From the NCBI RefSeq assembly GCF_006517175.1, contig NZ_CP041186.1, positions 6,475,074 to 6,539,073 on the forward strand: 64,000 bases of DNA, in the 5' to 3' direction. Each line of letters begins with the position of its first letter. The stretch's first letter is position 1. The notes under the pieces are model-generated. The model worked only from the letters and a program-made list of their open reading frames with translations. It was not told where the DNA came from and searched no databases. The stretch is from Persicimonas caeni. Lineage in GTDB: Bacteria > Myxococcota_A > Bradymonadia > Bradymonadales > Bradymonadaceae. Shown here one piece after another: positions 48,860 to 64,000 of this stretch. The position numbers and the translations under genes were made by a program.

Positions 48860-50284
48860 ATGCAGTCGCTGCCACGCTACTCGATATCATTCATTGTCGG
48901 GGTCTTCTTGCTGTCCCTGCAAGGGCAGGCTTTCGCCGTCGACTATTTTCTAAAGAACGACGGCATGGGAGAAAATTTCGAGGGGACCACGGCGACCGCC
49001 GAACTCATCAGCGGAGAGATGTACGCGGCGACCTTCGAGTTGCCGTCGAGCTGGCAGTTGCCTGTGGAGCTGCAGGGCGTGCGTGTGCTCATGGTCGACG
49101 GCAGCGAGCCCTCGAAGAGTTACTGCGGTCGGTTCACCATCGAGGTGTGGGAGGAGGCGGCCGGTGCGCCGACCAACCCGGGGACCTGTCCGTATACCCG
49201 CGTCAAAGACCCCGGGCCGGTCGTCTACAGCATGTCCAACCAATTCCAGAGCAACCCGATCGGCTTCGAGTTGGTGGGCAATAACAACAATTGGCAGGAC
49301 ATGCGGTTTTCTGCCATCAACAACAACGCCCAGCTCGGCGTGACCATTAATCCGGTCATGCTCAATACGCGGCGGGTGCGCGTGGCGATCAAGGCGATCG
49401 ACAACCAGTGCTTCAACGTCAGCAACGCCAATGCGTTTCCGGTGCTGGTTACCGACGACGACGGCACCTCGGCGGACAACTTCTTGTACGGCGAGGCTGA
49501 CCTGTGCGGAAGCATCTCGGGGACGGTGCCGCCGCCCGAGTTTTATTACTGGACCGATTTCGCCCAGTACTTTCAGGCGACCCCCGGTGACTTCATCATG
49601 CGGTTGATTTTCGACAGACCCGGACCCGGCGGTGGCGACGCGGGGGGCGACGCCGGAGCGGACGCGGGGCCGGACGTCGGCATGGACGTGGGCATCGACG
49701 CCGGAGCGGACACGGGCAGCAGTGATATCGGCCTCGACGCCAAGCCGGCCGATGTATCGGGCGGCGAGGATGTCGCCCAGCAAGACACCTCCAGCGGCCA
49801 GCAAGATACCGGCGCCGAACTGAGCATCACTTCGGTATCGCCCTCGACCATCACAAACGACCAGTCGACCAATATCGCCATCGTCGGAGGCGGCTTTGTA
49901 GCCGGCGCCCAGGTGCTCATCGGCGCCGAGGCCGTAGGCGTCACCGAGACGCAGTCGGGTATCATCAAGGCGACGGTGCCCGAGGGCTTCGCGTTGGGCA
50001 TGCATGACGTCATCGTGACCAACCCGGGTGGTGCCACGGCAGTCCTCGAAGACGGACTCGAGGTCACCGAGCCCGGCGCGGCCGACGCCGATGCGGGAGC
50101 GGGCGCAGACACCGACAGCGTGGGCCAGAGCAATAATGGGAGTGGTGCCGCCGCCGAGGGTTGCGGGTGCCGTTCGGTCGACACCGCCGCGGCGACGTCG
50201 ACGTGGGCGTGGGTCCTCGCTGCACTGGCGCTGTTGGGCGTGATGCTTCGGCGCCGGCTGGTGCCAACTCGCCGGCGGTGTTGA
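48860..50284 (+). CDS. surface protein with IPT/TIG domain and MYXO-CTERM-like tag
   Basis: A 474-residue protein with a signal peptide (MQSLPRYSISFIVGVFLLSL, cleavage after QAFA near residue 26). The N-terminal domain of about 220 residues is strand-rich with scattered cysteines. An Asp/Ala/Gly-rich linker (GGDAGGDAGADAGPDVG) separates it from an IPT/TIG domain (SITSVSPSTITNDQSTNIAI, then GGGFVAGAQVLIG and ATVPEGF). The end is a Gly-Cys stretch (AAEGCGCRS), a hydrophobic helix (TWAWVLAALALLGVML) and an Arg cluster, i.e. a MYXO-CTERM-type tag for surface sorting. ATG 48860 has GAGG close upstream. It is divergent from the large lipoprotein gene. Confidence 0.88.
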   Translation: MQSLPRYSISFIVGVFLLSLQGQAFAVDYFLKNDGMGENFEGTTATAELISGEMYAATFELPSSWQLPVELQGVRVLMVDGSEPSKSYCGRFTIEVWEEAAGAPTNPGTCPYTRVKDPGPVVYSMSNQFQSNPIGFELVGNNNNWQDMRFSAINNNAQLGVTINPVMLNTRRVRVAIKAIDNQCFNVSNANAFPVLVTDDDGTSADNFLYGEADLCGSISGTVPPPEFYYWTDFAQYFQATPGDFIMRLIFDRPGPGGGDAGGDAGADAGPDVGMDVGIDAGADTGSSDIGLDAKPADVSGGEDVAQQDTSSGQQDTGAELSITSVSPSTITNDQSTNIAIVGGGFVAGAQVLIGAEAVGVTETQSGIIKATVPEGFALGMHDVIVTNPGGATAVLEDGLEVTEPGAADADAGAGADTDSVGQSNNGSGAAAEGCGCRSVDTAAATSTWAWVLAALALLGVMLRRRLVPTRRRC

Positions 50285-50369
50285 GCTTCGCCCGGCGGAG
50301 TTGGTTTTTCGGTGCCGGTACGTAGTTTAGTGGCTACTTCTGACGCACACGCCCGAGCCGACAGTCTCT

Positions 50370-51920
50370 ATGAGCCTCTCGTTGATCTCATATCTGCTGG
50401 ACCTGACCTGGGAGATTAACTGGTGGACGGTGGTCTGGTGGGGCGGCATGCTCGTCGCCCTGTTCCACATCCCGTCGGTGTTGCTTCGTCGCGAGACGCG
50501 CCCGATGGCCGCGCTGGCATGGGTCTTGTGCCTCATCGCGCTGCCGGTGCTCGGCGTCATCTTGTGGTGGATGATCGGGCGAACACGTCTCGAGCGCCGA
50601 AAGCGGCGATGGGCGCGCTCCAAAAAGGTGGTGACCGACAGTCTGGCTGACGTGCGCCAGGCGATCGAGCTTCCCGACGATTCGGCCCACACCCGCATTA
50701 ACGACGGAGGGTCCCACTTTGCCTCCGACGACGCGCTTTACCTGCGCCAAGAGGAGGGCGTTTTCCCGCCGACCGAAGGCAACCGTGTCGAGATCTTCTC
50801 GTCGGGTCAAGACGCCTTCAACGCCTTCGAGCGAGCCATCCGCGAGGCGACCGACCACGTTCATTTCCAGTTCTACATCTGGCAGCGTGACGATATGGGG
50901 CGGCGCTTCCGCGACCTGCTCACCGAGAAGGCCAAAGAGGGCGTCGAGGTGCGGGTGCTCTACGACGCGGTGGGGGGCGCCCCGGTCAAACGCGGCTTCA
51001 TGGACCCGCTCATCGAGGCGGGAGCCAAGGTCGAGTCCTTCTTGCCCGTGGTCCTCTTCGAGCGCCAATTGCGGGTCAACTTTCGCAACCACCGAAAGAT
51101 CATCGTCGTCGACGGCAAGACCGGGTTCACCGGCGGCGTCAATATCGGTGATGAGTATTGCGACTGGCTCGATCTGGCATTCCGTCTCGACGGGCCGGTC
51201 GTGCTGCAACTCCAGGAGGTCTTCGCCGAGGATTGGTATTTCGCCACCGGCGAAGACCTGGCCAGCACGCGCTACTTCGTGGGCACCGAGGCGGTCCAAA
51301 AGGCCTTGGAAGAGACGTCGGAGCGCGAGGACGACGCCGACGACATCGAGCAGGGGAGGGTGGCCGAGTCCGTGACCGCCAGGATCATCGCCAGCGGCCC
51401 GGACAACCCCGAGAGCGCCATCCAGAACGTCTTCTTTATGGCCATCACCGGCGCGTCTCGGCGTATATACATCACCACGCCGTATTTCGTGCCCGACCAG
51501 GCGATGCTCATGGCCATCAAGACCGCGGCGATGCGAGGCGTCGACGTGCGGCTTTTGACGCCGGGCACCTCGGATATCCCCATCGCCCAAGCCGCCGGCC
51601 GTTCCTACTACGCCGAATTGCTCGCCGCCGGGGTGCGTATCTACGAGTACCACGAAGAGCGCGTGCTCCACGCCAAGTCGGTAGTCGTCGACGACGTCTG
51701 GTCGATCATCGGAAGCGCCAACATGGATATTCGAAGCTTTCTATTGAACTTCGAGGCCAACGCCGTGCTGCGTGACCGCGAGCTCAACTCGACATTGGCC
51801 GAGCTCTTCGAGACGCACCTCGAGCGTAGCACCGAGATGCGTCTGCAAGATTTCGAGAAGAGGCCGCTCAAGCACCGGTTGGTGGAGAGCACGGCGAGGT
51901 TGTTCAGCCCGTTGCTATGA
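50370..51920 (+). CDS. cls: cardiolipin synthase (phospholipase D family)
   Basis: A 516-residue inner-membrane enzyme. Two N-terminal helices (WWTVVWWGGMLVALFHIPSV and AALAWVLCLIALPVLGVILW) precede two PLD catalytic repeats. The first HKD motif is in NHRKIIVVDGKTGFTGG followed by VNIGDEY. The second is in RVLHAKSVVVDD followed by IIGSANMD. This matches cardiolipin synthases, which join two phosphatidylglycerols (or PG and PE) into cardiolipin. Length and topology fit the family. ATG 50370 has no strong Shine-Dalgarno. The gene ends 16 bp before the convergent MepA-like gene. Confidence 0.95.
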   Translation: MSLSLISYLLDLTWEINWWTVVWWGGMLVALFHIPSVLLRRETRPMAALAWVLCLIALPVLGVILWWMIGRTRLERRKRRWARSKKVVTDSLADVRQAIELPDDSAHTRINDGGSHFASDDALYLRQEEGVFPPTEGNRVEIFSSGQDAFNAFERAIREATDHVHFQFYIWQRDDMGRRFRDLLTEKAKEGVEVRVLYDAVGGAPVKRGFMDPLIEAGAKVESFLPVVLFERQLRVNFRNHRKIIVVDGKTGFTGGVNIGDEYCDWLDLAFRLDGPVVLQLQEVFAEDWYFATGEDLASTRYFVGTEAVQKALEETSEREDDADDIEQGRVAESVTARIIASGPDNPESAIQNVFFMAITGASRRIYITTPYFVPDQAMLMAIKTAAMRGVDVRLLTPGTSDIPIAQAAGRSYYAELLAAGVRIYEYHEERVLHAKSVVVDDVWSIIGSANMDIRSFLLNFEANAVLRDRELNSTLAELFETHLERSTEMRLQDFEKRPLKHRLVESTARLFSPLL

Positions 51921-51936
51921 GCTGCCGACTCACGTC

Positions 51937-53007
51937 CTACTCACACCGACGGTCGGTCGGCTGGCACGTAAAGCGCACGTGGAAGTGGTTTCGGTGGCCC
52001 GGGGAGTGGCGGATGATGGCGGTGCCGCCGCTGTAGTCGGGGTACTGGAAGACCTTTTCGACCCATTCTTGCGTGGCGCCCTGGGCGAGGGCTTCCTCGC
52101 GAAGCAGCTTCTGGAACCAGCGGTCCATGAAGACGTACTCGACGTAGCCGCCATCGAGTAGATCTTTCATCAGCGACAGCGTCTTTTTGACGTCCAAATT
52201 GCTGCGGCGCACGTAGTGGAAGCGCCGGTAGTTGGGCGGCGGCTCGTGGCGCGGGTAGCTGATGTCGATGTCACGCCCCGAACGGTGCGACTTGTGCGGG
52301 TGCATGCTCCGGCCGCGCCGGAAGCTGATATCACCGACCATCAGTTTGTGGGCGTCGGGATACTTTTCGTAGTAGTTGTCGAGCACCCGCTTGACTTCGC
52401 TGACGGTGTAGTACGTTCCGAAGGTGCGGTGTGGGTAAAGGATGACGTACTTTTCGTCGTCCGGAAGCGGCTCGGCGTTGTAGAGCCGACCCCAGTGGGC
52501 CGCGCCGTAGCTCTTGGCGATCTTTTCGGGGTTGCGCTTCCACACGAGGATGCGCTGGCCCGCATCGAGATCGCGCAGGTTGATGTCGGGGTTGAGCTTG
52601 CGCAACTGGTAGTTGCTGACCTTGTACATCAGCCGCAGCCGGCGAAGCGTCTGGCCGGGCTCGACGGTGTGCCAAAGCTCGTCGACGCGGGTGGTCTTGA
52701 CGACGGGCGTGCCCGCCTCGAACGGCCACTCTTTGGCGTCGGGTGGCAGGCTCCAGCGCTCCTGGCGGATGCGCTTGGCGATACGCTCGAGGGTGTCGGG
52801 CGGCAAGATCGTGTTGGTCGGCACCGGCCCGAAGCCGGAGGCCGCCAAGCGCAGCGAACCGGCGATGGAGCCGCTGGGCCCTTGTTGTGCCTCGACTTGT
52901 GACACCTCGGCGCCCGTGCCGAACACCGTCCACATCAGGACGATGGCGACCAAGCTGACCGCACGTGCCACAACCCCCGTATATTCTCGCACTATTCTAG
53001 CAAGCAT
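51937..53007 (-). CDS. LysM domain / MepA-type penicillin-insensitive murein endopeptidase
   Basis: A 356-residue exported peptidoglycan hydrolase. The N-terminus has a hydrophobic signal (AVSLVAIVLMWTVFGTGAEV). A LysM-like domain follows (about 112-157, HTVEPGQTLRRLRLMYKVSN and LRDLDAGQRILVW), which should hold it on peptidoglycan. The C-terminal LAS-type metallopeptidase has GDISFRRGRSMHPHKSHRSG with DIDISYP, and HRNHFHVRF, the expected zinc-site motifs. MepA cuts D-Ala-meso-DAP cross-links. The fusion of LysM to MepA is less common than MepA alone. ATG 53007 lacks a clear Shine-Dalgarno. The TPR gene upstream on the same strand ends 58 bp before it. Confidence 0.93.
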   Translation of the reverse strand: MLARIVREYTGVVARAVSLVAIVLMWTVFGTGAEVSQVEAQQGPSGSIAGSLRLAASGFGPVPTNTILPPDTLERIAKRIRQERWSLPPDAKEWPFEAGTPVVKTTRVDELWHTVEPGQTLRRLRLMYKVSNYQLRKLNPDINLRDLDAGQRILVWKRNPEKIAKSYGAAHWGRLYNAEPLPDDEKYVILYPHRTFGTYYTVSEVKRVLDNYYEKYPDAHKLMVGDISFRRGRSMHPHKSHRSGRDIDISYPRHEPPPNYRRFHYVRRSNLDVKKTLSLMKDLLDGGYVEYVFMDRWFQKLLREEALAQGATQEWVEKVFQYPDYSGGTAIIRHSPGHRNHFHVRFTCQPTDRRCE

Positions 53008-53055
53008 AGCGAACCGCGTAGATAGTGTAAGTACAATTAAGTTCGTGAGTTAATT

Positions 53056-53078
53056 TCTAGAATTATCAAAATTCTAGA
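53056..53078 (-). terminator. AT-rich palindrome overlapping the TPR gene stop codon
   Basis: TCTAGAATT (53056-53064) and AATTCTAGA (53070-53078) are exact complements around a five-base loop. The stop codon of the TPR gene (53066-53068) lies in the loop. It is followed on the minus strand by an AT-rich leader of the MepA-like gene. It may act as a weak terminator or regulatory stem. Confidence 0.45.
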
Positions 53079-53908
53079 TGCAGTTGTAAAGCGGCCCCTG
53101 ATTCCGTCGGCGCTACAGACACCGACCCGGCCGTACTACTGCTCTCGGCAGGACTGTCATCAAAGAACCAGGTGTACGCCAAAACCGATGCACCGGTGAC
53201 CGCAAGGGCTGCGCCCGAGATGGTCAGGGCGGTGAAGACGTTCTGTCGCGTCTCTAGTTCATCGCGAAGTTGGCGGTAACGTTCGGGCGAAGTGCCTGTA
53301 CCGCCTTTGCTTTCGGCGACGAAGTCGTCGCGTAAATCCCCGCTCAAATAGTCCAGAGTGACCGCTGTCGTCAAGAGCACCGCTCCGGTGCCCATGCTCA
53401 AATGCCCTGCGAGTTCGACATTCCACGGACTCTGAGGGGTGGGGACCTCGACCACTTTGGGCGAGATATCCCCCGCGGCAATATCGCGTGCGACCTCGAT
53501 GGCGCGGGGGCGAACCCCGCGCACAAAGGCACGCAAGCCCTTGTACTGCGCGTCGATCTGGGCGACCTCGGCCGGCGACCCTTCGAAGGTCGTACGGCAG
53601 GTCTTCAGATCGGACAGCGCTGCGTTCCACTCGTTCAGTTTGATGAGAGCAATCCCCCGATTGCAGAAAAAGACCGGCTCTTCGGCCAATTCGATGGCCC
53701 GATTGAACTCCTCGATGGCCTCTCGGTAGCGACCTTCCCCAAAAAGGCGCACCGCTTCGCCGTAGTGCCGGTCGGCTTCGATGGCGTCTGAATCAGACGC
53801 CGTGGCCCCGCCATCTTGAGCGGAAGCCGTTCGTGTCATGAGGAGTCCTGTACTGCCAATGATGAACACGAGCAGCAGGCGGACAAGATGTAAACCGGCG
53901 CTTTTCAT
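53066..53908 (-). CDS. secreted/membrane TPR protein with two C-terminal helices (paralogue of 1476-2345)
   Basis: A 280-residue protein. The signal peptide (MKSAGLHLVRLLLVFIIGST, cleavage near ASAQ) leads to TPR-like repeats (ADRHYGEAVRLFGEGRYREA, VFFCNRGIALIKLNEWNAAL). Two hydrophobic helices follow (HLSMGTGAVLLTTAVTLDYL and FTALTISGAALAVTGASVLA) around a polar loop. The C-terminus (VSVAPTESGAALQLHLEF) is a strand like that of the product of 1476-2345. ATG 53908 was chosen for the signal peptide; a TTG at 53944 adds 12 residues without a Shine-Dalgarno. It lies 110 bp downstream of the PEGA kinase at 54019-55644, the same pairing as at the window start. Confidence 0.85.
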   Translation of the reverse strand: MKSAGLHLVRLLLVFIIGSTGLLMTRTASAQDGGATASDSDAIEADRHYGEAVRLFGEGRYREAIEEFNRAIELAEEPVFFCNRGIALIKLNEWNAALSDLKTCRTTFEGSPAEVAQIDAQYKGLRAFVRGVRPRAIEVARDIAAGDISPKVVEVPTPQSPWNVELAGHLSMGTGAVLLTTAVTLDYLSGDLRDDFVAESKGGTGTSPERYRQLRDELETRQNVFTALTISGAALAVTGASVLAYTWFFDDSPAESSSTAGSVSVAPTESGAALQLHLEF

Positions 53909-53960
53909 GCCCTTCTTGATACGCGGAAGATGGGCAAAGGGCAAGTTATTGGTGGGGCGT

Positions 53961-54000
53961 GGCGCCTGAGGCGCGGTCTTGGCGCCTGCGGCGCGGTGGT
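53961..54000. repeat. two 20-bp direct repeats (GGCGCCTGAGGCGCGGTCTT type)
   Basis: Units at 53961-53980 and 53981-54000 match at most positions, and each contains the palindromic core GGCGCC..GGCGC. They lie in the 110-bp gap between the PEGA kinase and its TPR partner. GGGTCGTGGGTCGTGGGGC follows. They may form weak stems; no function is evident. Confidence 0.5.
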
Positions 54001-54018
54001 GGGTCGTGGGTCGTGGGG

Positions 54019-55644
54019 CTAGGGGATGAGCTTGAGGCGTCCCTTCTCGAGTTCGACGCGGACCGTCTGGTCTTTGTCGGGCACGACCTTCTGGAACTTG
54101 GTGCGGTAGCCAATGAGGTTGAGCTCGAGGTTGAGCGTTTGGTCGCTCTCGTCTGCTTTGTAGTCGACCGGAGTCGTGCCGGCGGGGCGGCCGTCGACGA
54201 GGACGCGCGCTCCCGGCGGGGTGGACTCGATCTTCAAGCTCACCTTGTCAGCCTTCTGGTCCTTGCGCTCGCCGTTGTCTGCCGTCGCCCGCGCGCCCTG
54301 CGATTCGACGCCTTTCGGGTCGGGTTTCTCTTGCTGGCCGCGCTCTTTCGCCGACGGGTCGGGCCTTCGGGCAGTGCCGATAGATCCGGAGCGATCGGCG
54401 ATCTTCGGGGGCTCGTCCCGAACCGTGTCGTCATCGTCTGCGTCAATCGCCTCGGCGACCGCGTCGGCCTCGAATTCCATCGTCTCGCCGGCGTCGGCTT
54501 CGGACGCAGCTGCGGCTGCCTGGGCCTCCTCGTCGGGGCCCCCGGCTCGCTCGTCGGCGGTCTCGGGCGTCTCGTCGGCCGCCGCGCGCGCCTTGTCGGC
54601 GCTCTGTTCACCCGTGCCAGGGATCAGTTGGAACATGACGGCGATGCCGACGGCGGCGAGGACGCCGATGACGATCGCCGCGATCAGCCCCTTTCGCCCT
54701 GTGCTCGGACGCGGCTGCGCCTGGGCCTTGGCCGTGGCGCCCTCGGGAACCGCCGCGCGCTTCGACTCGTCGCGGCGCTCCAAGATCTCGCGCACCCGCA
54801 GGGCGGACTGGATGCGCTTTTCGGGCTTCTTTTCCATGCAGCCGCGCACCGCCTCGCCCCAACAACTGCGCTCGAGGTGGGCGGGTAGCTCCGGCGGCTT
54901 GTCGCGCAGGTGCTTGACCATGACGCCCGGCGAGTTCTTGGCGCCAAAGGGGCGCCCGCCGGTGAGCATCTCGTACATGATCACGCCCAGCGAGTAGATG
55001 TCGGCGCGATGGTCGATCGCGTCGCCCACGATCGTCTCCGGGCTCATGTAGTGCGGGGTGCCCAGCACCGTGCCCGCCTGGGTGAGCGTCTCGTAGTTCT
55101 CCTCTTCGGTCTCCGTCTGGATCAATTTGGCGATGCCAAAGTCCAAGACCTTGACGATCTCGCGCATCTCTCCGGTCTCGGCGTCGCGCTTGGGCAGGAT
55201 GACGATGTTGGCGGGCTTGAGATCGCGGTGGACGATGCCGCGTTCGTGGGCGTGCTCGAGCGCGTCGACCATCTGGTAGACGAGCTTGCGCACCCGATCG
55301 GGCTCCAGGGCCCCCTCACGGGCGATGATCTCGTCGAGAGTGTCTCCTTCGACGTACTCGACCGCCATGTACAGGAGGTTTTCGTGGCGGCCGTAGTCGT
55401 GGACTCCCACGATATTGGGGTGGTTGAGCCGGCCGACGAATTGCGCCTCGCGCTCGAAACGCTCGACGATATCGGTCTCCAAGAACGCCTTGGGGAGCAG
55501 CGTTTTGAGGGCCACATGCCGCGAAATGCCGGTTTGATGGGCCCGAAACACCACGCCATAGGCACCACGACCGAGTTCTTCCTCGATGTGGTATTTTCCG
55601 GCGATGGTGTCGCCGGGGGTCGGTATGATGTACTTCTCGGACAT
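54019..55644 (-). CDS. Ser/Thr protein kinase with transmembrane helix and PEGA domain
   Basis: A 541-residue membrane kinase. The catalytic domain is complete: GRGAYG (25-30), Lys47 in VALKTL, HRDLKPAN (139-146), DFG (168-170), GTPHYMSPE and DIYSLGVIMYEMLTGG. An Ala/Lys-rich linker and one helix (GLIAAIVIGVLAAVGIAVMF, about 320-340) follow. After a long acidic linker, a periplasmic PEGA domain occupies about 470-541 (IESTPPGARVLVDGRPAGTT). This is the same layout as the truncated kinase at 1-1437. ATG 55644 has no obvious Shine-Dalgarno. It is divergent from the HEAT-repeat gene and followed by the TPR partner, forming a recurrent two-gene module. Confidence 0.95.
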   Translation of the reverse strand: MSEKYIIPTPGDTIAGKYHIEEELGRGAYGVVFRAHQTGISRHVALKTLLPKAFLETDIVERFEREAQFVGRLNHPNIVGVHDYGRHENLLYMAVEYVEGDTLDEIIAREGALEPDRVRKLVYQMVDALEHAHERGIVHRDLKPANIVILPKRDAETGEMREIVKVLDFGIAKLIQTETEEENYETLTQAGTVLGTPHYMSPETIVGDAIDHRADIYSLGVIMYEMLTGGRPFGAKNSPGVMVKHLRDKPPELPAHLERSCWGEAVRGCMEKKPEKRIQSALRVREILERRDESKRAAVPEGATAKAQAQPRPSTGRKGLIAAIVIGVLAAVGIAVMFQLIPGTGEQSADKARAAADETPETADERAGGPDEEAQAAAAASEADAGETMEFEADAVAEAIDADDDDTVRDEPPKIADRSGSIGTARRPDPSAKERGQQEKPDPKGVESQGARATADNGERKDQKADKVSLKIESTPPGARVLVDGRPAGTTPVDYKADESDQTLNLELNLIGYRTKFQKVVPDKDQTVRVELEKGRLKLIP

Positions 55645-55792
55645 CTAGTGCGGCTTTTTGAGGCTATGGTGGCATTTCTGTTGACAGCCTAATGCGAATG
55701 GTCGCGAATGTCACTCGAAGTCGATACTTGCCCAGTCGACCTGCCTTACTTATGTTGTCCGCGTTACGCCACGATCCGGCAGAGGAGTAAAG

Positions 55793-56548
55793 ATGGGATT
55801 TCTCGACTTTCTATTCGACAAAGAGAAAGCAGAAGAGCGCAAGATCAAAAAACTGCGCAAGACGCTGACCAACATGTACGTGCAGCCGCCCGAGCGCAAA
55901 TACGCCATCCAGGCGCTGCGTGACGTCGGCACGGTGGACGCCGTCGAGGCGCTCCTGGCGCGCTTCGAGGACAACGCGCCGAACACCACCGTGGACGCCG
56001 ACGAGAAGCGCTACGTCTACGAGACGCTGGTGAGCATGTCGGCCGACCCCGACTTGGACGTCAAGAATACCGTCGTCAAGTACCTGCACGAGCGCGACGA
56101 GAAGATCAACTGGCCCATGAAGGTCCTGACCGACCTGCTCGACTACAAAGAGATGGTCGCGCTGGTCCGAGAGCTTCTGGGCACCTGCGGCAACGAGTAC
56201 AAGCGCAACCCCGAGAAGAAGCAGGAGTTGGTGCTGCGCGCCGCCGATCTCAAGTCCGAAGAGCTCTCCGAAGAGCTTCTGCGCTTTCTCGACGACCCCA
56301 ACGAGACGATTCGGTTTTTGACCGTCGAAGCGCTGCTCAAGCACGGCTTCGACGAGATCATCCAGGAGCCGCTGCGAGAGCGTCTGCAGGAGGAAGAATC
56401 GATTCGTATCGTCCAGAAGCTGGCCGAGGCGTTCGCCGATCACAGCGACTGGAAGATCCCCGAGGACCAGCACGAAGACGTCGAGCACATGCTGCCCGAC
56501 GAGTATTCGGTGCACAAACAGGGCTACGTCTACAAGCGGCGTACCTGA
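55793..56548 (+). CDS. HEAT-repeat-like helical protein
   Basis: A 251-residue cytoplasmic protein with no signal peptide. The N-terminus (MGFLDFLFDKEKAEERKIKK) is amphipathic and basic. Helical pairs typical of HEAT/Armadillo scaffolds follow: KYAIQALRDVGTVDAVEALL, VKNTVVKYLHERD, DPNETIRFLTVEALLKHGF and EEESIRIVQKLAEAFADHS. It should act as a protein-binding scaffold. A strong Shine-Dalgarno (AGAGGAG) precedes ATG 55793. The next gene starts two bases after its stop, so the two are translationally coupled. The function is unknown. Confidence 0.85.
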   Translation: MGFLDFLFDKEKAEERKIKKLRKTLTNMYVQPPERKYAIQALRDVGTVDAVEALLARFEDNAPNTTVDADEKRYVYETLVSMSADPDLDVKNTVVKYLHERDEKINWPMKVLTDLLDYKEMVALVRELLGTCGNEYKRNPEKKQELVLRAADLKSEELSEELLRFLDDPNETIRFLTVEALLKHGFDEIIQEPLRERLQEEESIRIVQKLAEAFADHSDWKIPEDQHEDVEHMLPDEYSVHKQGYVYKRRT

Positions 56549-56549
56549 G

Positions 56550-57341
56550 ATGGGGCTCTCTTACGAGACAGCGGCGGCCGAAAGGCCGCTTCCCAAACCG
56601 CCCGAACGCGGCGGTGATTGGGCAACGTGGGCGGCCGAACAACGGCCGCCTGCGCAGTTCTTGAGCACCTATTCGGGGCCGCGGCTCTTCGGATTCGACA
56701 GCCACGTGCGCTTGGGTGGCGTGATCGTCCAGCCGGCCGAGGTGGTCTTGGGCATTCGCGCCTGGGACGACGCCTTCGAGGGCGTCATCGAGCTCGATGG
56801 CATCGCTTCGCCGGTGCCCTACGCGCTCTTCGAGGTCGAAAAGATCGTGCGCATGATGCTCCACCAGAGCGGGCTCGCCTTCGAAATTCTGGCCAGCCCC
56901 GCCGTGTTGCACGACGACGCCTTTCCGGCGCGACGCATCGTCGACGCGGCGATCACGCGCAATATCCTGCACCATTATCGCGACGTCGCCTCCGGTTGGA
57001 TGGCGCGTCTCGTCGAGACGCGAGGGCAGGGCGCCGAGCCCGCCGACGCGCTCGACGTGGTCCGAAACGCGCTGACGGGCCGAGCGCTCGTCGACGGGCG
57101 CGCCGCATTCGACGTGTGGGAGTTGGTCGGCGACTACGGTGAGGGTGGGCTCGAGGAGTTGTTGCGCGAACTCCAGACGGGCGTCGAGCCGGCAGCGGTC
57201 GACGCGCTGAGGGAGCATGTCGACGGCCTGTTGGCCCAGATCGACCCCGACGTCGCGAAGCTCCCCGAGAGCCCGCGAGACTACGACTGGCTAAATGATT
57301 TCGTCGTCTCCTCGCGTAGTGTATGCTCGAAGCGCGCGTGA
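56550..57341 (+). CDS. degenerate nucleotidyltransferase-like protein
   Basis: A 263-residue cytoplasmic protein. Residues 40-60 (TYSGPRLFGFDSHVRLGG) resemble the glycine-Ser/Asp signature of the Pol-beta-type nucleotidyltransferases of the COG3541 (YcgL-like) group, and FEVEKIVRMMLHQSGLAFEILASP matches the helical region that follows in them. The usual DxD pair appears as DSH (50-52), so one metal ligand is missing and catalysis is doubtful. Family membership is a moderate-confidence call. The start lies two bases after the HEAT gene stop, and the REC/J-like gene follows by 55 bp, so the three probably form one operon. Confidence 0.7.
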   Translation: MGLSYETAAAERPLPKPPERGGDWATWAAEQRPPAQFLSTYSGPRLFGFDSHVRLGGVIVQPAEVVLGIRAWDDAFEGVIELDGIASPVPYALFEVEKIVRMMLHQSGLAFEILASPAVLHDDAFPARRIVDAAITRNILHHYRDVASGWMARLVETRGQGAEPADALDVVRNALTGRALVDGRAAFDVWELVGDYGEGGLEELLRELQTGVEPAAVDALREHVDGLLAQIDPDVAKLPESPRDYDWLNDFVVSSRSVCSKRA

Positions 57342-57396
57342 GCGAGCCGTTCCTCGATCTCTCGAACCCTCGATTTCTCGATCACCCGCAGTACCC

Positions 57397-58299
57397 ATGA
57401 TTCGAATCCTACTCATCGGTCGACAGGCCGCCGCCTGGAGTGAGCGGCTCGAGCGTCGCGCGGGCGACGACTTCGAGTTCGACACAGCCAGGCTGCCGGC
57501 CGCCGGGCTGCGCCAGTTCGAGGCGACCCCGCCCGACGCGCTCGTCGTCATCGACTCGGCGTCGACGAAGCGCGCCGCCACGCTCATCGCGGCGGTGCGT
57601 GAGCGACCGTTGGGCCAGTTGATTCCGGTCATCGCCATCGCGCCGCCTCCAGGCGAGGCCGAGCACGCCGAGGTGGACGCTTGGTTGTCGCCCAACGCGC
57701 CCGTCGAGCGCCTGGTCGATGCCCTCGAAGAGTGCCTCGGCGTCGAGTTCGGCCAAGCCGACTCCCCGCGCGACTCGTCTGACTCGAATGGCGGCCCTTG
57801 GCGCGAGAAGACACCGGCCCGCGACGCCCCGAAGTCCTTTTGGGGCGACAAAACGCCGGCCAAGCAGGCGCCCGAGCCCCTCAAGTCGACCAACGAGATG
57901 CCGCAGTACTTCATCGAAGAGATCGACGACGAGCCCTTCGACCAGCCCCGGCGCCTCGACCGAAGCTCGATCTTCTCGTCGCCCTCCCGTCGCGGTCAGG
58001 AACGCCCGTCCGAGCAGGCCCGTGTCGACCAAGAGGCCGTCGAGCGCAAGCTCAAGGCGGTGCGCCACGAGGACTACTACGCCATTCTGGAGATCCGCCG
58101 CGGCGCCGAGGGCACGGTGGTGCGCGAGGCGTTCCACCGCCTGTACCGCCGGTTCGACCCGCGCGAGATGGACTTCGAGGTCGCCCACCGGATGGAAGAC
58201 GAGATCGGCGAGATCCGCGACGCCCTCGAGGACGCCTGGGCGGTGCTGGGCGACCCGACGCTTCGCCAGGCCTACCTCGAGCACACCACGCGCCGGTAA
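57397..58299 (+). CDS. receiver-like / J-domain-like fusion protein
   Basis: A 300-residue cytoplasmic protein. Residues 1-120 have a receiver-like alternation of strands and helices (MIRILLIGRQAAAWSERLER, then ALVVIDSAS and PVIAIAPPPGEAE) but no phospho-acceptor aspartate in the right place, so it is a pseudo-receiver. A charged linker (about 125-220) leads to a J-domain-like segment (EDYYAILEIRRGAEGTVVRE, LYRRFDPREM, then EDAWAVLGDPTLRQAYLEH). The HPD motif needed to activate DnaK is replaced by FDP. ATG 57397 was chosen because the receiver-like strand starts there; the longer frame from 57295 overlaps the preceding gene. It is probably co-transcribed with the two genes before it. Confidence 0.78.
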   Translation: MIRILLIGRQAAAWSERLERRAGDDFEFDTARLPAAGLRQFEATPPDALVVIDSASTKRAATLIAAVRERPLGQLIPVIAIAPPPGEAEHAEVDAWLSPNAPVERLVDALEECLGVEFGQADSPRDSSDSNGGPWREKTPARDAPKSFWGDKTPAKQAPEPLKSTNEMPQYFIEEIDDEPFDQPRRLDRSSIFSSPSRRGQERPSEQARVDQEAVERKLKAVRHEDYYAILEIRRGAEGTVVREAFHRLYRRFDPREMDFEVAHRMEDEIGEIRDALEDAWAVLGDPTLRQAYLEHTTRR

Positions 58300-58305
58300 G
58301 GGGGA

Positions 58306-58506
58306 TTCACCACGGGGGGGCACAGAGGGCACGGCGACTGCTTCTTTCTAAGTGTAAAGACGGAAGCTGTGTGCGACTGAGGTCGAGCGCATCGCCGGGA
58401 GGCCAAGGAGAAAGAACGCAGTGGTAGCAGCGCTACATCAAGTTCTTTCGACGCAGGCATCGTGGCGATGAGCCGGCCTCGTGGCCCCCGTGTTCTCCGT
58501 GGTGAA
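58306..58506. repeat. inverted-repeat element with TTCACCACGG termini (about 201 bp)
   Basis: The region begins with TTCACCACGG (58306-58315) and ends with CCGTGGTGAA (58497-58506), with further imperfect complementarity inside each arm (GGGGGCACAGAGGGCAC against GTGGCCCCCGTGTTCTCC). It fills most of the 326-bp gap between the J-like gene and def, contains no plausible gene, and shares its termini with the element at 61637-61716. Confidence 0.65.
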
Positions 58507-58556
58507 CCCTCCTGCACCACAGAGGTCGTCTCGGAAGTTTGGAGTAGGGTCGACTG

Positions 58557-58585
58557 TTGAAAGCCTGAAGTAAAACGGATAAACC
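58557..58585 (+). promoter_or_regulatory. candidate sigma-70 promoter of def
   Basis: TTGAAA (58557-58562) is followed after 17 bases by TAAACC (58580-58585). The -35 is good and the -10 is weak. It lies about 40 bp before the def start, in the part of the intergenic region outside the inverted-repeat element. Confidence 0.35.
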
Positions 58586-58625
58586 GTGGGTCTGTAACGA
58601 CCTGAAATGCCTAAAGAGGAAACCA

Positions 58626-59183
58626 ATGGCTATCCGAGAGATCGTTCTCTACCCGGAAGCGCGAGACGTGCTCACCACCAAGTGTACCCCCGTCGAAGAG
58701 GTCGACGAGGAGACGAAGCAGTTCGTCGACGACCTCATCGAGACGATGTACCACGCCAACGGCGTTGGCCTCGCCGCCCCGCAGGTCGGCGTGACCAAGC
58801 GCGTGACCGTCATCGACGTGAGCGACCGCGAGAGCGACGAGCGCGAGGTCTTCGTGCTCATCAACCCCGAGATCGTCGAGCGCGAGGGCAAGCTGACCTG
58901 GGAAGAGGGCTGCCTGAGCTTTCCGGGACTGTACGGCGACGTCGACCGCGCTGCCAAGGTCAAGGTGCGTGCGCTCGATCGCGAGGGCGAGGAGTACGAA
59001 ATCGAAGGTGAGGGCCTGCTGGCCGTCGCCCTGCAGCACGAGATCGACCACCTCGACGGCGTGCTGTTCATCGAGCGCATGAGCCGCCTCAAGCGGCGCA
59101 TGGCTCTCAAAGAGTACAAAAAGATTCGCGCTCGCCTCGCCGAAGAGGCCGAGAAAGAGGGCGAGGACGAGGCGGCGCAATAA
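58626..59183 (+). CDS. def: peptide deformylase
   Basis: A 185-residue Fe2+/Zn2+ enzyme that removes the formyl group from new protein N-termini. All three motifs are present: GVGLAAPQ (46-53), EGCLSFPG (metal ligand Cys96) and QHEIDHLDG (HEIDH at 138-142). Length is typical, with a slightly extended acidic C-terminus. AGAGGAAACC precedes ATG 58626. It begins the def-fmt-rsmB-rpe run. fmt, which adds the formyl group to initiator tRNA, follows by 88 bp, the classic pairing. Confidence 0.98.
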   Translation: MAIREIVLYPEARDVLTTKCTPVEEVDEETKQFVDDLIETMYHANGVGLAAPQVGVTKRVTVIDVSDRESDEREVFVLINPEIVEREGKLTWEEGCLSFPGLYGDVDRAAKVKVRALDREGEEYEIEGEGLLAVALQHEIDHLDGVLFIERMSRLKRRMALKEYKKIRARLAEEAEKEGEDEAAQ

Positions 59184-59216
59184 GCGTCGGCGAATCCGAG
59201 ACTTGCACGAGCGACG

Positions 59217-59242
59217 AAGCGGGCGTTACAAAGCGCCCGCTT
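59217..59242. terminator. hairpin between def and fmt
   Basis: AAGCGGGCG (59217-59225) pairs with CGCCCGCTT (59234-59242) around an eight-base loop and is followed by TGTGCGTTCTT. It is a possible attenuator or partial terminator, since the fmt start is only 30 bp downstream. Confidence 0.5.
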
Positions 59243-59271
59243 TGTGCGTTCTTGACCCACGGATAGGACAA

Positions 59272-60258
59272 ATGACTGCCGATTCTCAGAAACAAGCCCT
59301 TCGCGTCGTCTACATGGGCACGCCCGACTTCGCCGTGCCCGCCCTCGAGGCGCTCATCGACAGCCACCACGAGGTCGTGGGCGTGTTCACTCAGCCCGAC
59401 CGCAAGAGCGGACGCGGCAAGAAGGTGCGCCGCCCGCCGGTCAAAGTCGTCGCCGAGGAGGCCGGCGTTCCGGTCTACCAGCCCAAGCGCGTCAAGAAGA
59501 ACGACGAGGCCTATCAAACGCTGGTCGACTGGAACCCCGACGTGGTCGTCGTGGCCGCCTACGGCCAGATCTTGCCCGAGCGCATCCTCGAGGTGCCCCG
59601 GCTCGGCTGCATCAACATCCACGCCTCGCTGTTGCCCAAATACCGCGGCGCGGCGCCCATCAACTGGGCGATCGTCCACGGCGAAGAGAAGACCGGCGTG
59701 ACCATCATGCAGATGGACGTTGGGCTCGACACCGGCCCGATGCTCGAGAAGCACGAGGTCGATATTCCCGCCGACATGACCGCCCAGGAGCTGCACGACC
59801 GCCTGGCCGAGCTCGGCCGCGAGGTCATCGTGGGCGCCCTCGACAAGCTCGCCCAGGGCGAGCTCGAGCCGACCCCGCAGAATGACGACGAGTCGAGCTA
59901 CGCGTGCATGCTGTCGAAGGAAGACGGCCATATCGACTGGACGAAGTCGAGCGCGGCGGTCGCCAACCACATCCGCGGGTTCAACCCGTGGCCGGGCGCG
60001 TTCGCCTTCCACGAGCACGACGGCGAGCAGACCCGCATCAAATTCCACCTCGCCCGCCCGGTCGAGGACCTGCTCGGCGAAAAGGCTGGCGAGCCGGGCG
60101 AGGTGCTCGACGTCGACGTCTCGAACGAGCGCCTGGTCGTCGCCTGCGGCGAAGGCGCCATCGAGTGCCTGGAGGTGCAGGCCCCCTGCCGCAAGGCGAT
60201 GGGCGTGCGCGACTTTTTGTGTGGCTACGAAATCAGCGAAGGCGATTGCTTTGTCTGA
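59272..60258 (+). CDS. fmt: methionyl-tRNA formyltransferase
   Basis: A 328-residue enzyme that formylates Met-tRNA-fMet using 10-formyl-THF. The N-terminal domain has YMGTPDFAVPALEAL, the catalytic region INIHASLLPKYRGAAPINWA (Asn-His with the SLLP loop) and GVTIMQMDVGLDTGPM. The C-terminal tRNA-binding domain has IRGFNPWPGAF. ATG 59272 has AGGA five bases upstream; the upstream in-frame ATG at 59203 would run through the hairpin. The end overlaps rsmB by 8 bp, so the two are translationally coupled. Confidence 0.97.
   Translation: MTADSQKQALRVVYMGTPDFAVPALEALIDSHHEVVGVFTQPDRKSGRGKKVRRPPVKVVAEEAGVPVYQPKRVKKNDEAYQTLVDWNPDVVVVAAYGQILPERILEVPRLGCINIHASLLPKYRGAAPINWAIVHGEEKTGVTIMQMDVGLDTGPMLEKHEVDIPADMTAQELHDRLAELGREVIVGALDKLAQGELEPTPQNDDESSYACMLSKEDGHIDWTKSSAAVANHIRGFNPWPGAFAFHEHDGEQTRIKFHLARPVEDLLGEKAGEPGEVLDVDVSNERLVVACGEGAIECLEVQAPCRKAMGVRDFLCGYEISEGDCFV
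60238..60242 (+). promoter_or_regulatory. ribosome binding site deciding a TTG start for rsmB
   Basis: GAAGG lies eight bases before TTG 60251, within the last codons of fmt. No ATG in this frame lies near the beginning of the NusB-like domain, so TTG is the only sensible start. Confidence 0.55.
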
Positions 60259-61618
60259 ACTCAATCCCCGACAACTCGCCCAGGAAGTGCTCGAGACGAT
60301 CGAGCGTGAGGACGCCTACAGCCACATCGCGCTCGACGCCGCCCTGGAGCGAAGCGGCCTCGACGCGCGTGACCGCGGGCTGGCCACCGAGCTGGTCTAC
60401 GGCACGCTCACCTGGCAGCGCTCCCTCGACAAGGTGTTGGGCGACTTCGTGCGCCGGGGCATCGACGGGCTCGACCTGCCCGTGCTCGTGGCGCTTCGGG
60501 TGGCGGTCTACCAGCTGCTCTTCTTGAACCGCATCCCCGCGCACGCCGCGGTCGACGAGGCGGTCGAGATCACCAAGGCCGGGCCGAGCAGGGCGGCCGC
60601 CGGCCTGGTCAACGGCGTGCTGCGGAGCATCGTGCGCAAAAGGGGCCAGGCGAAGCAGGCGAATCAGTCGAAACAAGTGCGTTGGTGGAGCGACAAGGGC
60701 CGCGAGCGCAAGCCCGCGCGCTACCTGGGCGAGCGCTACTCGCTGCCCAATTGGATGACCAACCGCATGCTGCAGTACTGGGGCCTGGAGCGCGCCGAAA
60801 AGCTCGCCGAGGCCTTCGACACCCGCCCGCCGCTATACCTTCGCCTGCTCGCCGACGACGTCGAGCTGCCCGAGGGCGTCGAGCCCGTCGAGGGCGTGCC
60901 CGGCGCGCTGCGGGCGGCCTCGATGAGCGACGCGGTACGCGCCGGCATCGCCGACGGCAAGTGGGGCGTCCAAGACCTGGGCAGCCAGCTCATCGGGCTG
61001 TACGCAGGCGCCGAGCCCGACCTTGCGGTCCTCGACGGCTGCGCGGGCCTTGGCGGAAAGACCCTGCACCTGGCGCGACTCGTCGGCCCCACCGGCGGGG
61101 TCGTGGCCGTCGACCCGGCCGACACCAAGATCGACATGTTGTGCACGGCCGCCGACAGCGCCGGCATGCGCGAGCGGCTCACCACGCAGGTCGCAAGCCT
61201 CCAAGACTTCGCCCAGGAGACCGACGAGACCTTCGACCTGGTGCTCATCGACGCCCCGTGCAGCGGCCTGGGCGTCATCCGACGCCACCCCGAGACCCGC
61301 TGGAGGCGAAGCGAGTCGGACATCTTCGCGCTCACCAAGCTGCAAGCAGAGCTGCTCGACGTCGCCGCCACCTTGGTACGTCCGGGCGGCACGCTCACCT
61401 ACAGCGTGTGCACCTTCACCACCGAAGAAGGCCCCAAGCAGGTCGAGCGTTTCCTCGAGCGCCACGGCGACTTCGAGCGCACCGGCGCCCCCGAAAGCGG
61501 CCCCGGCGCCGAGGTCGACTGGAAAAAATACGTTGATGGAGACGCCCAATTGACGCTAGATCCGCTCGAGCACGACACGGACGCGTTCTTTGCGGCGCGT
61601 CTTCGTCGGAAGAGCTAA
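60251..61618 (+). CDS. rsmB: 16S rRNA (cytosine-5) methyltransferase RsmB
   Basis: A 455-residue protein that methylates C967 of 16S rRNA using SAM. The N-terminal NusB-like RNA-binding domain (NPRQLAQEVLETIEREDAYS, RVAVYQLLFLNRIPAHAAVD) is followed by the methyltransferase. The latter has SAM motif I (VLDGCAGLGGKTLHLA), motif IV with DAPCSGLGVIRRHPE, and the catalytic Cys in TYSVCTFTTEE. The start is TTG 60251, placed by GAAGG spacing; the open frame upstream is not coding. It overlaps fmt by 8 bp. The def-fmt-rsmB order is a common conserved cluster. Confidence 0.95.
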   Translation: MSELNPRQLAQEVLETIEREDAYSHIALDAALERSGLDARDRGLATELVYGTLTWQRSLDKVLGDFVRRGIDGLDLPVLVALRVAVYQLLFLNRIPAHAAVDEAVEITKAGPSRAAAGLVNGVLRSIVRKRGQAKQANQSKQVRWWSDKGRERKPARYLGERYSLPNWMTNRMLQYWGLERAEKLAEAFDTRPPLYLRLLADDVELPEGVEPVEGVPGALRAASMSDAVRAGIADGKWGVQDLGSQLIGLYAGAEPDLAVLDGCAGLGGKTLHLARLVGPTGGVVAVDPADTKIDMLCTAADSAGMRERLTTQVASLQDFAQETDETFDLVLIDAPCSGLGVIRRHPETRWRRSESDIFALTKLQAELLDVAATLVRPGGTLTYSVCTFTTEEGPKQVERFLERHGDFERTGAPESGPGAEVDWKKYVDGDAQLTLDPLEHDTDAFFAARLRRKS

Positions 61619-61636
61619 GAGCTGCTAGAGATGTAA

Positions 61637-61716
61637 TCACCACGGAGCACACGGGGGCACGGGGGAAAAGCAATAATAAAAAGCGTGTCTCCGTGTCCCC
61701 GTGTGCTCCGTGGTGA
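61637..61716. repeat. inverted-repeat element with TCACCACGGAG termini (80 bp)
   Basis: TCACCACGGAGCACACGGGG (61637-61656) and 61697-61716 are exact reverse complements (20 bp), around an A-rich centre (AAAAGCAATAATAAAAAGC). It fills the rsmB-rpe gap, carries no gene, and shares its termini with the element at 58306-58506. It can also form a very stable hairpin that may act as a terminator. Confidence 0.8.
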
Positions 61717-61744
61717 AACCCAAGTTCAACCCAGCGAGTCCCTC

Positions 61745-62410
61745 ATGAAGCCACTCATCGCCCCGTCGATTCTCTCGTCCAACTTCACCCGCCTCGCCGA
61801 AGAGTGCCAGGCGGTGCTCGACGCCGGCGCCGACTGGCTGCACGTCGACGTGATGGACGGCCACTTCGTGCCCAATATCACCATCGGTCTGCCGGTGGTG
61901 AAAGCGCTGCGCGGCGAGTTTCCCGACGCGGTGCTCGACGTCCACGTCATGATCTCGGACCCCGACTTCTACGCCGCCAAATTCGTCGAGGCGGGCGCCG
62001 ACTACCTGTCGTTCCACCCCGAGGCGACCGCCCACACCCACGGTGTGATCCAGCAGATCCACGAAGCCGGCGGCAAGGCCTCGCTGGCCATCAACCCGGG
62101 CACGCCGCTCGACGTGGTCGAGTACGTCGTCGAGGACCTCGACATGGTGCTCATCATGAGCGTCAACCCGGGCTTCGGCGGCCAGTCGTTCATCCCGCAG
62201 TCCTTGCGAAAGCTGCGCGACCTGCAGGAGCTCTTGGAGCGCCACGGGCGCACCGACATGCGCGTTCAGGTCGACGGCGGGGTCAAGGTCGACAATATCG
62301 CCGAGATTTACGAGGCCGGCGCCAACGTATTGGTGTCGGGCAGCGGCATCTTCAAGAGCGAGTCGTACGCCGATACGATCGCCGAGATGAAACGCCGCGT
62401 GGGGGCGTAA
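61745..62410 (+). CDS. rpe: ribulose-phosphate 3-epimerase
   Basis: A 221-residue TIM-barrel enzyme that interconverts ribulose-5-phosphate and xylulose-5-phosphate in the pentose phosphate pathway. It has the family motifs IAPSILSSNF, HVDVMDGHFVPNITIG (metal-binding His and Asp), VHVMISDP, SFHPEA, MSVNPGFGGQSFIP and VQVDGGVKVDNI, and a phosphate site at LVSGSGIFKS. Length is typical. ATG 61745 gives the normal N-terminus; the longer frame upstream would run from the inverted repeat. Downstream lies a long repeat-filled region. Confidence 0.97.
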   Translation: MKPLIAPSILSSNFTRLAEECQAVLDAGADWLHVDVMDGHFVPNITIGLPVVKALRGEFPDAVLDVHVMISDPDFYAAKFVEAGADYLSFHPEATAHTHGVIQQIHEAGGKASLAINPGTPLDVVEYVVEDLDMVLIMSVNPGFGGQSFIPQSLRKLRDLQELLERHGRTDMRVQVDGGVKVDNIAEIYEAGANVLVSGSGIFKSESYADTIAEMKRRVGA

Positions 62411-62411
62411 C

Positions 62412-62684
62412 GGGGGCGAGGGCATCTTGCCCTATTTGTTCGGTGCGAGGGCATCTTGCCCTCGCCAGCGAGAGCTGGAAGCACTCGCACCGAAAAGAGG
62501 TTCGGTGCGTGGGCATCTTGCCCTCGTAAGCGAGAGCTGGAAGCACTCGCACCGAAAAGAGGCTCGGTGCGAGGGCATCTTGCCCTCGCCAGCGAGAGCT
62601 GGAAGCACTCGCACCGAAAAGAGGTTCGGTGCGTGGGCATCTTGCCCTCGTAAGCGAGAGCTGGAAGCACTCGCACCGAAAGAC
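62412..62684. repeat. tandem 62-bp multi-hairpin repeats (four units plus a partial one)
   Basis: Units start at 62441, 62503, 62565 and 62627, each 62 bp (the last slightly short), with a partial unit at 62412-62440. Units 1 and 3 agree, as do 2 and 4, giving a 124-bp higher-order repeat. Each unit can fold: CGGTGCGAG pairs with CTCGCACCG, enclosing CGAGGGCA/TGCCCTCG (loop TCT) and, in units 1 and 3, CCAGC/GCTGG. No unit has a unique spacer, so it is not CRISPR, and ORFs in it are repeat artefacts. Confidence 0.9.
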
Positions 62685-62755
62685 GAAAGTCCTCCGTGAT
62701 TGCACCTGGTTTCCGGTCACGCCCTACGCGAGTCGACCGGGCCGATGTCTGATAC

Positions 62756-63050
62756 TGGGGCAGAACAAGGGGGGGATGGGGCCATGTGACTTCTGCCCCC
62801 AGACCGCGATTTTTGGGGTTCGACCCCAAAAATTTCTGGTCCGGGGGCAAAATTTTTTTGAGTCGACCTCAAAAATTTTCGGTCCCCGAGCAGAAATGAG
62901 GGGGGTAGGGGTCCCCAGAGTTCTGGTCCCCGAGCAGAAATGAGGGGGGTAGGGGTCCCCAAAGTTCTGGTCCCCGAGCAGAAATAGGGGGGGTAGGGAG
63001 GGGGGGGCGTCTGCCCCCCGAGCAAAACTGACGGGGGTCGAACCCCCCTC
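62756..63050. repeat. G-rich 44-bp tandem repeats with AT-rich hairpins
   Basis: GGTCCCCGAGCAGAAATGAG recurs with 44-bp spacing (starts 62881, 62925, 62969), each unit also holding GGGGGGTAGGGGTCCCC. Upstream, ATTTTTGGGGT (62809-62819) and ACCCCAAAAAT (62823-62833) form a perfect 11-bp stem, and a second imperfect AT-rich stem lies near 62850-62880 around GTCGAC. Long G runs end the tract near 63010. No gene is seen. Confidence 0.85.
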
Positions 63051-63055
63051 CACTG

Positions 63056-63988
63056 TTACTCGAGGTGCTTGTCGAAAAACGCCGTCGTCAGCTCCCAGGC
63101 CTTCTGGGCGGCCTCTTTGTCGTAGTTTTTGCCCGACGGGTTGGCGAAGGCGTGGCCGGCGTCCTCGAAGATCTGGATGGTCGCATTCTTGTCGAGCTTC
63201 TCGAGGGTCTTGTCGAACTCGCGCACGTTCTCGACCGGAATGCCCTGGTCTTCGGCGCCGAAGATGCCCAGGAGCGGGGCCTTCAGGTCGGCGAGCTGCG
63301 ACTCGTCGGTGTTGACCTCCCCGTAGTACATGACCACCGCGTCGACGTTCTCCTTCATGTTGAGCGCGCCGCGCAGCGACCACCCTCCACCGAAACACCA
63401 CCCGATGATGCCCATCGCGCTGGGGCTGTACTCGTCTTCCATCCAGCGTCTGGCCGCCGACAGGTTCACGAGCGCGGCCTTGTCGTTGTTCATCGTCTTG
63501 TTCATCAGCCGGCGCGCCTTCTCGGGCGTGTCGGCGGTCTCGCCGTTATACAGGTCGACGGCCAGCGCCCGGTAGCCCTCGCCGGCCAGCCGGCGGGTCA
63601 TCGCGCGGATATTGTCGTTGAGTCCCCACCACTCGTGGATGACGATGATCGCGGGCAGGTCTTCTGCGGCGTCTTTGGGCTCGGCCAGGTAGCCCGTGAT
63701 GGGCTCGCCGGCGCGCGAGAAGTACTCGACCTCTTTGCCGACGACCTCGGTGGCGGGCGCCTGCTTGGCCCCGTCACTCGCCGTAGGCTCGTCACCGGCG
63801 TGCTCCTTGGCCATGCGGTCGGTGATGGTCTCGTTGGCCTGTTCGTTGGCCTGTTCGTTGGCCTGCTCGTTGGCCGTGTCGGCCTTCACCGGCTCCTGCT
63901 CGGCGGGCTGCGGGTCCGGCTTGGGCTCGGAGGGGGAGCAGGCGGCGAGGGTGGCGAGGGCGATGCAGAAGAGCAGCAAGTTGCGCAT
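63056..63988 (-). CDS. dienelactone hydrolase family lipoprotein
   Basis: A 310-residue exported alpha/beta hydrolase. The signal ends with LAAC (lipid Cys17). A Glu/Pro/Asn linker contains a 4-residue repeat (NEQA) coded by 12-bp units (63831-63875). The hydrolase domain has IHEWWGLND, nucleophile Cys198 in GWCFGGG, Asp247 (AEDQGIP) and His279 (DAGHAF), the Cys-His-Asp triad of dienelactone hydrolases; the substrate is unknown. ATG 63988 was chosen because GGAG (63996-63999) is seven bases away, whereas ATG 63994 is only one base from it. No downstream partner is visible. Confidence 0.93.
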   Translation of the reverse strand: MRNLLLFCIALATLAACSPSEPKPDPQPAEQEPVKADTANEQANEQANEQANETITDRMAKEHAGDEPTASDGAKQAPATEVVGKEVEYFSRAGEPITGYLAEPKDAAEDLPAIIVIHEWWGLNDNIRAMTRRLAGEGYRALAVDLYNGETADTPEKARRLMNKTMNNDKAALVNLSAARRWMEDEYSPSAMGIIGWCFGGGWSLRGALNMKENVDAVVMYYGEVNTDESQLADLKAPLLGIFGAEDQGIPVENVREFDKTLEKLDKNATIQIFEDAGHAFANPSGKNYDKEAAQKAWELTTAFFDKHLE

Positions 63989-63995
63989 GGTCATT

Positions 63996-63999
63996 CTCC
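63996..63999 (-). promoter_or_regulatory. ribosome binding site deciding the start of the dienelactone hydrolase gene
   Basis: GGAG on the minus strand is one base from ATG 63994 and seven from ATG 63988. The second ATG has normal spacing. Confidence 0.6.
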
Positions 64000-64000
64000 G

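Follow-up and report, generated by a model that had tools for sequence, protein, structure and literature searches.

The three genes under study lie in a 64,000-nucleotide stretch of DNA (hereafter the window) from Persicimonas caeni, a predatory salt-pond bacterium of the Bradymonadales in the Myxococcota. They encode a HEAT-repeat protein (gene 1), a degenerate nucleotidyltransferase-like protein of the RlaP family (gene 2; NT or pseudo-NTase), and a protein in which a receiver-like domain is followed by a linker and a J-like domain (gene 3), and downstream of them are genes that we take, from family features, to be def, fmt, rsmB, and rpe (Table 1). The sequence-only reading of this DNA had described a three-gene cluster with its first two genes one base apart and the third following closely, and this description holds, with 1 nt between the HEAT and NT genes and 55 nt from the NT stop codon to the ATG of gene 3. 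That ATG is most likely the true start, since homology to relatives begins there; a longer open reading frame from 57295 would overlap the NT gene and is unsupported by homology to relatives. Gene order, open frames, and residue losses recur in related genera, which argues against a chance arrangement.

Table 1. Coordinates in the window of the three genes, their flanking genes, and the domains and sites discussed in the text
Feature	Position	Strand	Remarks
Divergent serine/threonine kinase gene	54019..55644	-	Context only; name from family features
HEAT-repeat protein gene (gene 1)	55793..56548	+	251 aa; Pfam HEAT_2
Degenerate RlaP-family nucleotidyltransferase-like gene (gene 2, NT, pseudo-NTase)	56550..57341	+	263 aa; PF10127, fold model
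Remodelled nucleotide-binding loop of pseudo-NTase	56676..56723	+	Residues 43-58; DxD replaced, 3 residues fewer than in RlaP
Codon 90 (Pro) at third catalytic Asp site	56817..56819	+	Acidic here in 0/11 locus copies
New conserved motif of pseudo-NTase, E97-K-x2-R-M-x-L-x-Q-S-x2-A-x-E112	56838..56885	+	11 locus copies
Pseudo-receiver + linker + J-like gene (gene 3)	57397..58299	+	300 aa
Pseudo-receiver domain	57397..57747	+	Residues 1-117; Arg9-Gln10 for acid pair, Ile52 for phosphorylated Asp
Low-confidence linker	57748..58032	+	Residues 118-212; pLDDT mostly <55
J-like domain	58033..58296	+	Residues 213-300; profile match to PDB DnaJ chains
Asp-Pro-Arg codons at HPD site	58156..58164	+	Residues 254-256
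def (peptide deformylase), first downstream gene	58626..59183	+	Name from family features

Several smaller features surround these genes. The divergent kinase gene and the HEAT gene have an open upstream region in common, and the two genes adjoin in several, not all, relatives. Between the J-like gene and def, positions 58348-58480 are 95% identical to G000:C1:1294446-1294578 and 6423392-6423523 and represent a small interspersed repeat. A repeat insertion was also considered as the source of the 55-nt stretch before gene 3 and was set aside, there being only one further match, with 3 mismatches, in the same genome. Two tandem arrays lie downstream of rpe, at 62438-62681 (62-base unit, 3.9 copies) and 62881-62998 (44-base unit, 2.7 copies), and the open reading frames within them encode recurring identical peptides. 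A scan for promoters and terminators found none, and a search against Rfam gave no match.

HEAT proteins usually serve as scaffolds. Gene 1 matches the HEAT_2 profile at 38.1 bits, against a Pfam cutoff of 27.7, and the host genome contains a single strong match to it. The protein is old and widespread, since 106 of the 140 genomes sampled across the phylum contain a match. At 25 HEAT loci outside the order, some of them short, a search with profiles recovered no NT or J-like orthologue nearby; an ordinary, HPD-bearing DnaJ lies about 3 kb away at one of them. No partner of the HEAT gene common across the rest of the phylum emerged; its neighbor sets vary by lineage, and the use of stop-to-stop frames makes the merged neighbor clusters noisy. 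Two candidates were rejected along the way: a fusion of the HEAT gene to the upstream gene in G149, where third-position GC marks a 1,614-codon open frame as coding near the HEAT gene only (a Pfam search of that frame found nothing), and a PADLOC match for the HEAT protein, which is a weak, partial match to a very long model.

By sequence profile and predicted fold, gene 2 is a member of the RlaP nucleotidyltransferase family. It matches PF10127 at 47.4 bits (cutoff 23, E = 2.5e-12), and its AlphaFold model, predicted with high confidence (pLDDT 88.9, pTM 0.89), is closest among solved folds to Hailong HalB and to aminoglycoside nucleotidyltransferases. Sequence searches of the PDB were less informative; with the NT profile, the sole matches were to aminopeptidase N and a nickel regulator (E of at least 0.013), both of which were discarded, and an intact RlaP sequence used as the query was no more helpful. 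The catalytic residues of the family are lost. We take the metal-binding aspartate pair to be that of the general hG[GS]...Dh[DE]h pattern; the corresponding DYD motif of two intact RlaP paralogues in the host genome aligns with His-Val-Arg in the window copy, and the third aspartate with proline. Loss of a metal ligand had been read from the sequence and is borne out, but a single ligand was too few. Of 18 other RlaP copies from the phylum, all have both aspartates of the DxD motif and 16 have an acidic residue at the third carboxylate position, whereas none of the 11 NT copies at this locus in the host's family has either feature; these 18 are stop-to-stop reads picked up because they resemble the window NT or the host's own RlaP genes and are thus a nonrandom sample. 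Only the G090 copy retains a single aspartate of the pair. In a tree of RlaP copies, the 11 locus copies group apart from the 18 others, and this split has support values of 100 and 69 on the two sides of the midpoint root.

The locus copies of the NT gene diverge strongly, with 22 to 47% identity to the window copy across relatives, and in G042 and G116 much of the palm region is missing and the nucleotide loop is largely absent. The frame is nevertheless open in all 11 genomes that carry the gene, and a motif of its own has become fixed, with E97, K98, R101, M102, L104, Q106, S107, and A110 invariant and E112 nearly so among the 11 copies. The two intact RlaP genes of the host lie in tandem elsewhere in the genome (L162, 8402-9166 and 9432-10364; G000:C1:2264401-2266363). 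We noticed no RNA ligase in the open reading frames listed around this pair, although RNA ligases are the reported partners of RlaP, and none in those listed for positions 50000 to 64000 of the window.

Gene 3 had been described as a receiver-like part without its aspartate joined to a J-like part without HPD, and both descriptions stand. The predicted model of the receiver part superimposes on the FrzS receiver with a Z score of 15.6 (rmsd 2.3, 113 aligned residues). A profile alignment to two solved receivers has Ile52 where the phosphorylated aspartate would be, Arg9-Gln10 in place of the acid pair, and a residue other than lysine at the position of the conserved lysine, so the residues of phosphotransfer are lacking. 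Passages of PMC12632262 define a pseudo-receiver as a computed receiver without key phosphotransfer residues, and gene 3 fits this definition. One residue past the phosphorylation site is Asp53, which the window copy shares with many, though not all, relatives, so a phospho-acceptor shifted to this position is conceivable.

The J-like part was assessed by sequence profile only, the VIA list for the gene 3 model being filled by the receiver. As a single sequence, gene 3 scores 24.5 bits against the DnaJ profile PF00226, just under the cutoff of 27.8, and the family profile of this part matches DnaJ chains in the PDB (best E = 5.7e-11). Its invariant columns are EIRDALEDAWAVLGD. The HPD site aligns with Asp-Pro-Arg, and none of 22 proteins retains HPD there (G148, in which the J part is cut off, was left out of this count); in G144 the string HPD occurs in the linker, outside the J site. 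Three of the 22 are from the sister family, which indicates that the loss of HPD predates the cluster. One relative has the J-like C-terminal part a second time, on a separate contig (G116:C23:419-709; L070, L161).

We searched for the three genes with profiles in 26 genomes of the order, 21 from the host's family and 5 from its sister family. Within the host's family, the HEAT gene is present in all 21 genomes and the J-like orthologue in 19; in the other two, the contig ends beside the HEAT gene (G081 and G135, left out of the linkage counts). In each of the 19 genomes that allow a judgment, the HEAT and J-like genes are neighbors (two contig ends each carry part of the HEAT gene in G140), and the NT gene lies between them in 11 of these and is absent from the other 8. 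Spacing is tight throughout. The distance from the HEAT gene to the NT gene ranges from -4 to 42 nt across ten measured relatives; a 4-nt overlap of the NT gene with the J-like gene occurs at 9 of 11 loci, the exceptions being G047 (38 nt) and the window; and where the NT gene is lacking, the gap between the HEAT and J-like genes is 9 to 36 nt in the three loci measured. The link extends downstream: at 16 of the 17 loci where def is visible, it directly follows the J-like gene at no more than about 0.4 kb, and in G047 it is about 5.8 kb away. In the sister family, the HEAT and J-like genes are each found in 4 of 5 genomes, always on different contigs, and G147 matches neither; one of these genomes (G146), the single case showing the J-like context there, has the J-like gene directly upstream of def, fmt, and rpe without the HEAT gene.

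Co-occurrence of all three genes in other genomes, which had been proposed as a check, is thus found within the host's family (11 of 19) and does not extend to the sister family or to the 25 HEAT loci outside the order. The separation of the genes in relatives, named beforehand as evidence against the idea, is likewise found in part: the HEAT gene stands apart outside the family, and the J-like gene stands at def in G146. A dedicated three-part complex, as originally envisaged, is partly supported: the constant HEAT/J-like adjacency in the family, the conserved residue losses, and the overlap of NT and J-like genes in most loci favor it, and this separation and the absence of the NT gene from 8 of 19 loci speak against it.

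We reconstructed the history of the locus with a 25-genome tree based on five genes from this region (HEAT, J-like, def, fmt, and rpe), with many gaps in the outgroup; it is built from the locus genes themselves and is not an independent species tree. The NT carriers fall on both sides of the family root, so the distribution is most simply explained by one gain in the family ancestor and two losses, in G140 and in a clade of G062, G072, G095, and G141-G144. Two inner nodes are weak (49 and 58); the NT-less clade has support of 97, and the clade that joins it to the NT carriers G013, G023, and G033 has support of 99. Across the three close pairs formed by G013, G023, and G033, dN/dS is 0.18 to 0.24 for NT, 0.18 to 0.19 for the J-like gene, and 0.05 to 0.09 for HEAT, and that of def and fmt in the same genomes is 0.03 to 0.09. 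The NT values show that the gene is under purifying selection and is kept, not decaying, despite its lost catalytic residues, and its fast divergence may also be that of an accessory under loose constraint.

Since working residues are lost in the enzyme-, receiver-, and chaperone-like parts alike, the cluster probably works by binding rather than by chemistry. Judged by gene content across relatives, it is a lineage-specific pseudoenzyme module and not an obligate three-part complex, because the parts are separate outside the family and the NT gene, absent from 8 of 19 HEAT/J-like pairs, is not needed for the pair. The account that we propose, and to which we give an even chance, is a lineage-specific operon of noncatalytic binding proteins that form a HEAT-based assembly with an optional pseudo-NTase subunit. 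The phylum-wide HEAT protein would act as the scaffold for a pseudo-receiver/J-like adaptor, which would lack both standard phosphorylation and HPD-dependent stimulation of Hsp70. In most genera, the optional third subunit would be a dead RlaP-type nucleotidyltransferase, offering a binding surface, presumably the conserved EKxxRMxLxQSxxAxE helix, in place of chemistry. The gene overlaps suggest that the pseudo-NTase and the adaptor are made by coupled translation, and physical contact among all three proteins would be expected. The steady link of the J-like gene to def and fmt is a weak hint of a role close to the N-terminal processing of proteins. A bolder extension, distinctly improbable in our view, is a regulatory assembly wholly of chemistry-less folds (pseudo-nucleotidyltransferase, pseudo-receiver, and pseudo-J) on a HEAT scaffold, tied through the operon to formyl-methionine handling (def, fmt) and running with or without the pseudo-NTase.

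The genes may instead be operon neighbors that form no complex. The HEAT gene would have moved beside an older J-like/def/fmt operon in the family ancestor, with the NT gene inserted between them, and the products would be coexpressed but act apart. The HEAT gene alone at all 25 loci outside the order, the J-like gene upstream of def without HEAT in G146, and the eight pairs without NT all favor this history, which we nevertheless regard as rather unlikely; it does not readily account for HEAT/J-like adjacency in 19 of 19 genomes, with short gaps even where NT is absent, or for 4-nt NT/J-like overlaps that persist through strong sequence divergence. Simple decay of the NT gene, in a cluster without shared function, would agree with the fast divergence of NT and with its two losses on the tree, but is very unlikely given 11 open frames of 11, dN/dS of about 0.2, and new invariant residues specific to the family.

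Two further alternatives were considered. It is improbable, though consistent with the preserved NT fold and the invariant K98 helix, that the pseudo-NTase still senses a ligand by binding a nucleotide or RNA and relays its state to the adaptor. Passages of PMC7824862 propose a role in RNA repair for the parent family; however, the nucleotide loop is shortened and varied, and largely absent in two relatives, and the proteins are mostly acidic (pI 4.4 to 7.05), which disfavors RNA binding. That the locus is an RNA-repair or anti-phage system appears extremely unlikely, as catalytic residues are lost, PADLOC has no match to gene 2 or gene 3 and a single weak one to the HEAT gene, and the cluster keeps a steady place beside def and fmt instead of an island-like spread; this is despite the reports of RlaP in RNA-repair systems (passages of PMC6514570 and PMC7824862) and the top fold match of NT to HalB.

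Each part of the proposed binding module has known counterparts. The pseudo-NTase resembles RlaP (PF10127, Pol-beta nucleotidyltransferases) in profile, length, predicted fold, and a conserved lysine in the helix after the third carboxylate strand, but it lacks all three catalytic carboxylates, has a shortened loop and its own motif, and is partnered by HEAT and J-like genes, whereas RlaP is reported with RNA ligases. Its closest fold match, Hailong HalB (PDB 9dbh, 9dbi, and 9dbj; Z score 10.4, rmsd 3.8, 178 aligned residues), shares only 12% identity with it, and the HalB entries name a D21/D23 pair that is absent from the pseudo-NTase. The FrzS pseudo-receiver of Myxococcus xanthus likewise has a receiver fold without phosphorylation chemistry; passages of PMC1974792 report that its aspartate site is missing and that it does not bind Mg2+, and passages of PMC12632262 that it binds a partner protein through its receiver surface. 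The receiver of gene 3 differs in being fused to a J-like domain and in its partner. A J fold without HPD is also found in Pam16 and TbPam18, which are eukaryotic mitochondrial membrane proteins without a receiver domain, and according to passages of PMC11349236 the J-like TbPam16 and TbPam18 probably act without Hsp70 stimulation. Finally, the DZF domains of NF45-NF90 are nucleotidyltransferase folds without catalytic residues that are used in a heterodimer of pseudo-NTase domains (passages of PMC11952958); unlike gene 2, they are eukaryotic, belong to another subfamily, and occur with double-stranded RNA-binding domains.

Pseudo-receivers, J-like domains, and pseudo-NTases are thus each already known, and a conserved operon that unites all three with a HEAT protein may be new; no description of such an operon was found in the excerpts of the open-access literature that were searched. 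The gain of a noncatalytic role should be directly testable in this cultured predator, since intact and dead RlaP copies share one genome and there are natural relatives without the dead copy.
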